Positions 59,994 through 64,000 of a stretch of DNA of 64,000 nucleotides are shown here, piece by piece. The notes below the pieces were generated by a model. That model ran no database searches. It worked only from the letters and a program-made list of their open reading frames with translations, and was not told the origin of the DNA. This stretch comes from Paludisphaera borealis. GTDB lineage: Bacteria > Planctomycetota > Planctomycetia > Isosphaerales > Isosphaeraceae. The stretch's first letter is position 1. Each line of letters opens with the position of its first letter. The DNA lies in assembly GCF_001956985.1 (NCBI RefSeq), contig NZ_CP019082.1, positions 930,001 to 994,000 of the forward strand. Reading direction: 5' to 3'. The translations under genes and the position numbers were made by a program.

Positions 59994-60659
59994 TCAAGCC
60001 TTGGGGCCGGTCTGCTCGGCCTGAGCGAACCAGTCGGCGAGGGCGAGGCGGAAGCCGGGTAAGACGTCGCCACCGTCGAGCTCGTCGTCGATTGTCAGCG
60101 TGGTGAAATCGTGGCGCGCGGTGTAGGCGCGGACAGTGTGGCGTCTGGGGTCGACGTACCAGACGAGCCGCACGCCGGCCCGGAAATACTCGTCAAGCTT
60201 GCGCTCCATCTCCCTGCGTCTGTTCGACGTGTTGAGGATTTCCACGACGAGGTCGGGTGCCACAGTCGGGATCTCGCCGCTCCCTCGACCCGTTTTGGGA
60301 ACACGCTCCCACGAGATGAACATGGTGTCGGGGATTCGGATTACGCCGGGAAAGAGCCTGATCGTGCCGTCGGCCCTCAGGATCACGCCGAGATCGTGCT
60401 CCCGGAGATAGCTGCCGAGATAGTAAGCGAGCAGAACCGCGAGCCGCGATTCATGGAACCCCATGCCCTTCTCTACCAGCACCCCGTCGACCAACTCAAA
60501 GAGCCGTCCCTCGCGGCTGCGGTTGTGGAATCGGATCACGTCCTTCTCGGTGGCCGTGCCGGGGGTGGGGACCATCCGGACGCGCGAGGGGGGGACGTCG
60601 CCCAACCGCTTCAGCAGGTCGGCCACGGTCTCGGTGCCTGGAGGCGTCGCGATCGACAT
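59994..60659 (-). CDS. Uma2 family PD-(D/E)xK nuclease-like protein
   Basis: A 221-residue Uma2 (DUF820) protein. RLFELVDGVLVEKGMGFHES, IRIPDTMFISWERV and APDLVVEILNTSNRR give the acidic catalytic residues, and the Lys follows in ERKLDEYFRAGVRLVWYVD. The fold is restrictase-like; activity is not established. Such genes are numerous in planctomycetes and cyanobacteria and often move. GAGGGACG precedes the ATG. Confidence 0.9.
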   Translation of the reverse strand: MSIATPPGTETVADLLKRLGDVPPSRVRMVPTPGTATEKDVIRFHNRSREGRLFELVDGVLVEKGMGFHESRLAVLLAYYLGSYLREHDLGVILRADGTIRLFPGVIRIPDTMFISWERVPKTGRGSGEIPTVAPDLVVEILNTSNRRREMERKLDEYFRAGVRLVWYVDPRRHTVRAYTARHDFTTLTIDDELDGGDVLPGFRLALADWFAQAEQTGPKA

Positions 60660-60898
60660 GGGCGTCCCTCGAAAATGCCGGAGATCAAGGCGATCCATTG
60701 TCTCATCAACCGGGATCGGCGGGCAAGCCGACCCCTGTCGACGATAATCTTGCGAAACACCTCCGATACGGTCGTCTCAATCGAGCGATCCGGGAGTAAA
60801 TTAGCTGTAGGGGATTCCCTGCACTTTCTCAACCTGGAACGCCGTTCGGCCGGGCCGTGGAAGCCGGGAACTTTCGGTGAGATGGGATGAAAAGCGCG
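60660..60898. other. intergenic left of the repeat array, nothing recognised
   Basis: No gene, tRNA or clear terminator. The first, degenerate motif copy starts at 60899. Confidence 0.4.
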
Positions 60899-61047
60899 CG
60901 ATCAAAGCCAATCGTGGGAACAGGAGCCTGAGTCGTTCGACTTCAACGGAAACGGGGGGGGCAGATGTCGGCTGGTGACGAATCAGGCCGAAAACCGCGC
61001 CGAACGAAGCCAATTTGTTGGCGTGAGTGTAAAGAAAAATGGGGTAA

Positions 61048-61094
61048 GGCTTTGCGTTTGTTGGCCGGGCGGTTGGCCCGGCGCGAACGAAGCC
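61048..61094 (+). other. 47-nt hairpin ending in motif copy 61084
   Basis: GGCTT(TG)CGTTTG pairs with CGAACG-AAGCC of the motif, leaving a TG bulge, with an inner CCGGGC/GCCCGG stem and a 5-nt loop. The only non-Watson-Crick pair is a T-G. Confidence 0.65.
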
Positions 61095-61252
61095 AATTTG
61101 TTGGGGTGGGTAGAAGGAAGTCCGTATCGGTGGGGCCCTTGGATGCCGCAACCCGTTTTGGGGCGAACGAAGCCAATGCTCAAGTCGCGTCAGCCTGTTT
61201 TCGGGACGAACGAAGCCAATGGCATTCTATGATACAAAGTATTGCAAGATAG

Positions 61253-61299
61253 GGTTTTGCGTTCTTGGGGCGGGCGTTGTGGCCGGCGCGAACGAAGCC
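61253..61299 (+). other. 47-nt hairpin ending in motif copy 61289
   Basis: GGTTT(TG)CGTTC pairs with GAACG-AAGCC of the motif, again with a TG bulge. Its inner stem is less regular than in the 61048 hairpin. Confidence 0.55.
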
Positions 61300-61601
61300 A
61301 ATTCGGCGGCCAGGCTCGAATGAGGACGGGCATCAGGGCAAGACCTTCCTCGCGACTGTCATCGGTCGGGGGGAACTCGAATGCGGAGTGGTTTTCGGGG
61401 CAAACGAAGCCAATTCTCCGGTCTGGCGGTCGGAGGGACGGGGCGGCCTTTTCGGCGGCGGGTCCGGCTCGGGGGGCGGAAGGCCGCATGCGGTTATCCA
61501 TGTGGCGGCCAAGAACTTCGGGCGAGGAATTTGCGAACGGGCGTCCCATAATGATCGTAGGAAATGTCGACGGCCCGTCGAGCGGACCGCCGCGGCCCCG
61601 G

Positions 61602-61691: not shown

Positions 61692-64000
<2,309 letters not shown>

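Follow-up and report, generated by a model that had tools for sequence, protein, structure and literature searches.

What does an array of a 14-base motif do in front of secA in Paludisphaera borealis? The array lies in a 64,000-nucleotide stretch of the genome (the whole of the DNA analysed, called the window here), in the gap before secA, and a sequence-only reading had left open whether it consists of protein-binding sites, a structured transcript or a mobile repeat. We therefore examined the array itself, its counterparts in P. borealis and its relatives, the spacing of its sites and the genes found beside it.

The array before secA and its counterparts in the genome

A scan of the window allowing mismatches placed seven plus-strand copies of CGAACGAAGCCAAT at 60899-61414. 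Five are exact (starting at 61001, 61084, 61164, 61207 and 61289), the copy at 61401 has one mismatch and that at 60899 has two, in agreement with the earlier count of seven same-direction copies, six of them with no more than one change. Their start positions give intervals of 102, 83, 80, 43, 82 and 112 bp, in order, within the range of 43-112 bp first given. The array is flanked by a 234-aa open reading frame (60698, minus strand) on one side and by secA (ATG at 61692) on the other. Four further matches in the window each have three mismatches, which is chance level, so that the motif is indeed absent from the rest of the window. The sequence between the copies had been described as mostly different; this holds for the array in general and fails for the 83- and 82-bp intervals, which have in common a 74-nt block at 74% identity that includes the conserved core treated below. 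The features are as follows.

60890-61414, plus strand: whole array, seven motifs and two core units (motif scan, spacing analysis, congener comparison)
60890-60893, plus strand: A-tract box at the conserved offset of -9 to -6 before the first motif (sequence; weight matrix)
60899-60912, plus strand: motif copy 1, CGATCAAAGCCAAT, two mismatches, a common variant genome-wide (motif scan; degenerate genome search)
61001-61014, plus strand: motif copy 2, exact (motif scan)
61029-61056, plus strand: core dyad 1, inside the 83-bp unit 61001-61097 (alignment of 81-83 bp units)
61084-61097, plus strand: motif copy 3, exact (motif scan)
61164-61177, plus strand: motif copy 4, exact (motif scan)
61207-61220, plus strand: motif copy 5, exact (motif scan)
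61234-61261, plus strand: core dyad 2, inside the 82-bp unit 61207-61302 (alignment of 81-83 bp units)
61289-61302, plus strand: motif copy 6, exact (motif scan)
61401-61414, plus strand: motif copy 7, CAAACGAAGCCAAT, one mismatch (motif scan)

Exact copies of the 14-mer number 49 in the P. borealis genome, against none for the reversed-pattern control; the cluster is thus real and beyond chance, as had been claimed. A degenerate form, CRAWCRRASCCAAT, has 326 copies (reversed control 0). A weight matrix over 58 array loci of this genome, which include that of the window and were chosen by the motif itself, found 289 sites (reversed control 0); its consensus is GSG followed by CGAWCGAASCCAATy, with an A/T-rich box ahead of them at -9 to -6. 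Within each of the 58 loci the motif copies lie on one strand. Arrays hold three to eight direct sites around a core and number about 100 per genome; intergenic same-strand arrays occur once per ~75 kb in P. borealis, in divergent (20), convergent (16) and tandem (21) gene gaps. Several counts of this analysis cover the first 100 places listed. The genome-wide search thus returned neither single motifs scattered at chance level nor a cluster confined to one strain and lacking conserved spacing. The window array is one of dozens scattered over the chromosome, neither local nor specific to secA.

Helical spacing of the motifs and the core unit

In the 58 P. borealis loci, spacings no longer than 180 bp number 225 and cluster at about 45, 56, 67.5, 79, 89.5, 101, 112, 123 and 135 bp, with a separate class at 81-83 bp. 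When this class is set aside, the best period is 11.08 bp (~11.1; bootstrap 95% 10.96-11.18) with R 0.69, a pooled statistic that is inflated by related, non-independent arrays; when a single array stands for each similarity cluster (n=30 spacings), the period is 11.02 bp, R 0.64 and p about 5e-6. The zero phase of the lattice falls at 11.22 bp, and the intervals are therefore whole multiples of about 11.2 bp. Codon spacing, that is multiples of 3, was considered as a cause of the lattice and does not account for the ~11.1-bp period. Negatively supercoiled bacterial DNA in vivo has a helical repeat of about 11 bp per turn (PMC8501960), and the nearness of the lattice to this value suggests that the sites lie on the same face of the helix. 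Hand-transcribed spacings from distant metagenome-assembled genomes (MAGs) are phased too, at 21, 32, 63 and 90, 100.5, 111 bp, and give lattices of their own: 10.4 bp for the short spacings of G233 (R 0.94) and 11.2 bp for G232 (R 0.89). In G232 and G233, overlapping half-motifs TTCAAACCCAATTCAAACCCAAT recur every 10-11 bp, one helical turn (L243, L277, L278).

The 81-83 bp class is found about once per array (44 cases in the 58 loci), and most arrays hold such a unit. In its spacer lies an imperfect dyad, AT-rich and conserved (roughly YAAANNNCTT-N5-AAWAANGANTTACG), whose AA and TT blocks are 21 bp apart. In P. soli JC670 (G003) and Planctomyces sp. SH-PL62 (G002) the unit is ~90 bp long and reads motif, core, inverted motif (GATGGSTTCGTT), motif, with nothing conserved beyond it; the variable base of the inverted motif does not track that of the direct motif. 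Pairing of the core dyad did not exceed that of shuffles and showed no covariation, and the core is therefore read as a DNA site, not as an RNA hairpin. The array has no Rfam match either, so that the suggestion of a structured transcript or riboswitch is not supported. The suggestion of protein-binding sites fares better: the sites lie on one strand and on an 11.1-bp lattice, with a motif conserved over unconserved spacers, from which we infer binding. It is thus probable that a DNA-binding protein docks on the arrays and that they have nothing to do with secA.

A gene family linked to the arrays

Four of the 58 P. borealis array loci carry a gene of a 411-436 aa class with the N-terminus ANRANAKKSCGPKSDDGKARSRLNALKHGL, one of them shortened by an insertion sequence (IS), and the last codons of these genes are the motif itself (..KEPNPP.., ..ANEAN..). 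The family to which they belong is ~330-450 aa long with the N-terminal signature ANRxNAxKSxGPxTxxGKxxSxxNALxHG. Every full-length P. borealis copy inspected either has the motif at its 3' end or is truncated at that point by an IS. Species-specific motif-core-motif units sit in the 3' end of the gene in SH-PL62, P. soli, G005, G004 and G001; those of G001 and G004 are degenerate. Copy number varies from 11-28 matches in P. borealis, G005, G006 and G023 to one in G001-G004 and G011.

Of 40 relatives, seven genomes have 8 or more pattern hits and all of these carry the linked gene; the 19 genomes that lack it all stay below 8 hits. The gene is not sufficient for arrays, since many genomes carry it without the motif (e.g. 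G008, G012, G013 and G020). Aquisphaera insulae (G235) has more than 10 gene copies that lack the motif (L250-L261 listed); some of these copies have other C-terminal tandem repeats (SPAVGSLRSSTAT), perhaps a different type of array. G176 has arrays, none of them beside its one distant gene copy. We also considered that every array might have a decayed gene copy upstream; in tblastn searches, however, the gene turned up at only 4 of 58 P. borealis loci and at none of the array loci sampled in SH-PL62 and P. soli.

Searches with the linked protein gave no match in Pfam (E<0.01) or NCBIfam, and a transposase, integrase or phage relative was found neither there nor in phages or viral contigs. Hits in PHROGs were weak (terminase small subunit, E 0.04), and a PDB sequence search gave a hit at E 0.23. 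Modelled by AlphaFold from 16 sequences, the protein is all-helical (pLDDT 79.5, pTM 0.59), and Foldseek returned nothing for the model at E<=0.001. About half of the invariant residues fall in the first 37 positions, which we take, without proof, as the predicted DNA-contacting part. In SH-PL62 the sole gene copy is on plasmid pPL62-1 (L196/L269), where parA and a replication initiator gene lie within a few genes of it, and the arrays are on the chromosome. The N-terminal signature also occurs in hypothetical proteins of alphaproteobacterial (Marivivens) and cyanobacterial (Picosynechococcus) plasmids (L267, L268).

The distribution of the arrays is wide but patchy, comprising the Isosphaeraceae and distant planctomycete MAGs. 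In the latter, arrays of AACRAASCCAAT lie after or over the 3' end of the linked gene (L243, L244, L249, L251, L255, L257), and this motif has 212, 240 and 567 copies in those genomes (summed controls 0-4); the record of one such MAG (L231) is titled Phycisphaerae. Array pairs were found in only 2 of 199 genomes of a phylum sample and in six stretches among 2.9 million viral contigs. Units in G232 and G233 (L243, L244, L277, L278) read in frame as MNVNLYVIEDYEN...NKPN..KPIS, and arrays may therefore yield over-annotated small hypothetical proteins.

Spacers of different arrays in one genome are 65-85% alike over up to about 600 bp, and the arrays are therefore old copies of each other. Together with positions that mostly differ between species, this lends partial support to the earlier idea of a mobile repeat, and movement would follow as an inference.

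Taken together, we consider that the window array is a dispersed, helically phased and putatively protein-binding copy of a planctomycete repeat system made of a gene and its satellites, a reading to which we give a probability of roughly 0.55. Its unit would be a motif (CGAWCRRASCCAAT), the AT-rich dyad core and a second motif, extended by same-strand motifs at whole helical turns. The motifs would serve as binding sites on one face of negatively supercoiled DNA, over several of which a protein could assemble, around the core, into one nucleoprotein complex. The likeliest binder may be the product of the array-linked gene, where the array makes up the last codons in Paludisphaera and lies after or over the 3' end in the distant MAGs. 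The satellite arrays would derive from such gene-linked arrays and spread between genes, presumably copied in trans, and would then decay except at the motif and the core. No catalytic domain able to move arrays was found, and two gene copies of G005 (L207/L218), inspected by eye, have no terminal inverted repeats of the kind seen in DDE transposons and MITEs. A more specific version is tentative: a helical DNA-binding family, with a gene that ends in its own array, might assemble on whole-turn satellite arrays and either organise the chromosome at tens of kb or copy the arrays without a known transposase; the result may serve the host or only the element.

The closest described counterpart in logic is that of the REPIN-RAYT systems, in which intergenic repeats have a linked gene (PMC3116915, PMC8049555). 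As there, hundreds of short intergenic repeats per genome have a patchy, partly vertical distribution, the linked gene has a repeat beside it (with A. insulae and G176 as exceptions here) and is single-copy in several species. However, the gene is multi-copy in several of our genomes, and the repeat overlaps coding DNA in Paludisphaera. Moreover, a REP hairpin is replaced here by direct phased repeats and a dyad core without covariation, and the linked protein has a predicted helical fold and no match to a Y1 (HUH) transposase. Because these two defining features, hairpin and Y1 transposase, fail, the arrays are not a member of this class. Among open-licence papers, those that came up for the motif sequence do not deal with dispersed repeats of bacteria, and none of the planctomycete papers found describes the array; nor does any sequence library searched. 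If the gene-plus-satellite reading is correct, the repeat system would be an undescribed one, with a protein family of its own that is uncharacterised and as many as several hundred sites in a genome. It would preserve a natural trace of the helical repeat in vivo (11.1 bp in P. borealis), and the filling of phased sites by a single protein could readily be studied on it. Some odd small hypothetical proteins in planctomycete annotations, read from arrays, may have their explanation here, as may the places at which IS110 elements land in these genomes. A vague repeat before secA would then become the testable question of whether the linked protein binds the sites.

Alternative readings: chromosome architecture, recombination, IS110 insertion and secA

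The same dispersal could be expected if a nucleoid or segregation protein of the host bound the arrays at intervals of tens of kb as sites of chromosome architecture, the gene-linked copy being incidental or self-regulatory. Among the matches listed, inter-array intervals are more even than random in P. borealis (CV 0.66, p 0.006), in SH-PL62 (CV 0.64, p 0.0004) and on two P. soli contigs (CV 0.34-0.35, p 0.0012 each), values that come from the first ~100 places listed and whose evenness may in part be imposed by large intergenic gaps. Four array pairs, two of them in opposite orientation, occupy corresponding gaps of two species, with both flanks clearly homologous, and the indifference of the arrays to divergent, convergent and tandem gaps speaks against a tie to promoters. 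However, other cross-species arrays, including the nearest counterpart of the window array (L169), are shifted by at least one gene, and positions are mostly not common to species. Arrays are also nearly absent in some congeners (G001, G004). The sites known as matS, parS and SlmA sites are likewise short, dispersed (tens to hundreds) and presumably protein-bound; they are single and mostly palindromic, unlike the three to eight direct sites on a helical lattice around a core described here. We regard an architectural role as unlikely, although it is the best of the alternatives.

Somewhat less likely still is that the arrays are recombination sites, that is attachment sites or residual ends of a mobile element, in which a tyrosine-recombinase-like enzyme would cross over at the core (two ~11-bp arms plus a short spacer) and use the phased motifs as arm sites. 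In phage lambda attP, a dyad core is flanked by same-direction arm-type sites, and the arrays have a dyad core of suitable size with similar flanks. The P. borealis gene copies, alike in DNA up to the 3' motif and different beyond it, would fit such a scheme. On the other hand, the arrays have no recurrent recombinase gene next to them, conservation of the core from copy to copy is poor, and homology between arrays breaks at varied points and not at the core. The some 100 arrays per genome, with neither a linked recombinase nor a consistent core junction, also differ from attP.

The 14-mer is an insertion target of an IS110-family element. An element encoding 382 aa splits the motif in six of the seven P. 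borealis copies compared (CGA, IS, AAGCCAAT; L063, L065, L070, L081, L091 and L113, with L110 as the exception), and a further copy of the linked gene is interrupted by an IS at the same point of the motif (L272). Insertion sequences, including IS110-family elements of the IS621 type, are known to target REP/BIME repeats (PMC11208160, PMC1525189). Here too intergenic repeats are hit by IS110-family elements; the target differs in being a non-palindromic 14-mer and the IS in being secondary. That the arrays are a by-product of such an element is very improbable despite the split motifs, since the IS went into a pre-existing motif, most arrays have no IS or IS remnant, intact arrays occur in genomes and loci without it, and IS110 insertion would not make phased arrays.

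Equally improbable is a secA leader or regulatory RNA: the array does lie upstream of secA on the same strand, but it is absent from the 1.5 kb before secA in the four congeners with enough upstream sequence (G001, SH-PL62, P. soli and G005), dozens of other arrays occupy positions away from secA, frequently between convergent genes, and neither an Rfam match nor covariation was found. The caution of the sequence-only reading that the array need not be the secA leader was thus well placed. Its separation of the array from CRISPR also stands, with repeats of 14 nt at non-uniform intervals of 43-135 bp. In G004 the check covered 849 bp before secA. P. soli also has the 234-aa minus-strand gene (59994-60698 in the window) next to secA, with another gene at the place of the array.
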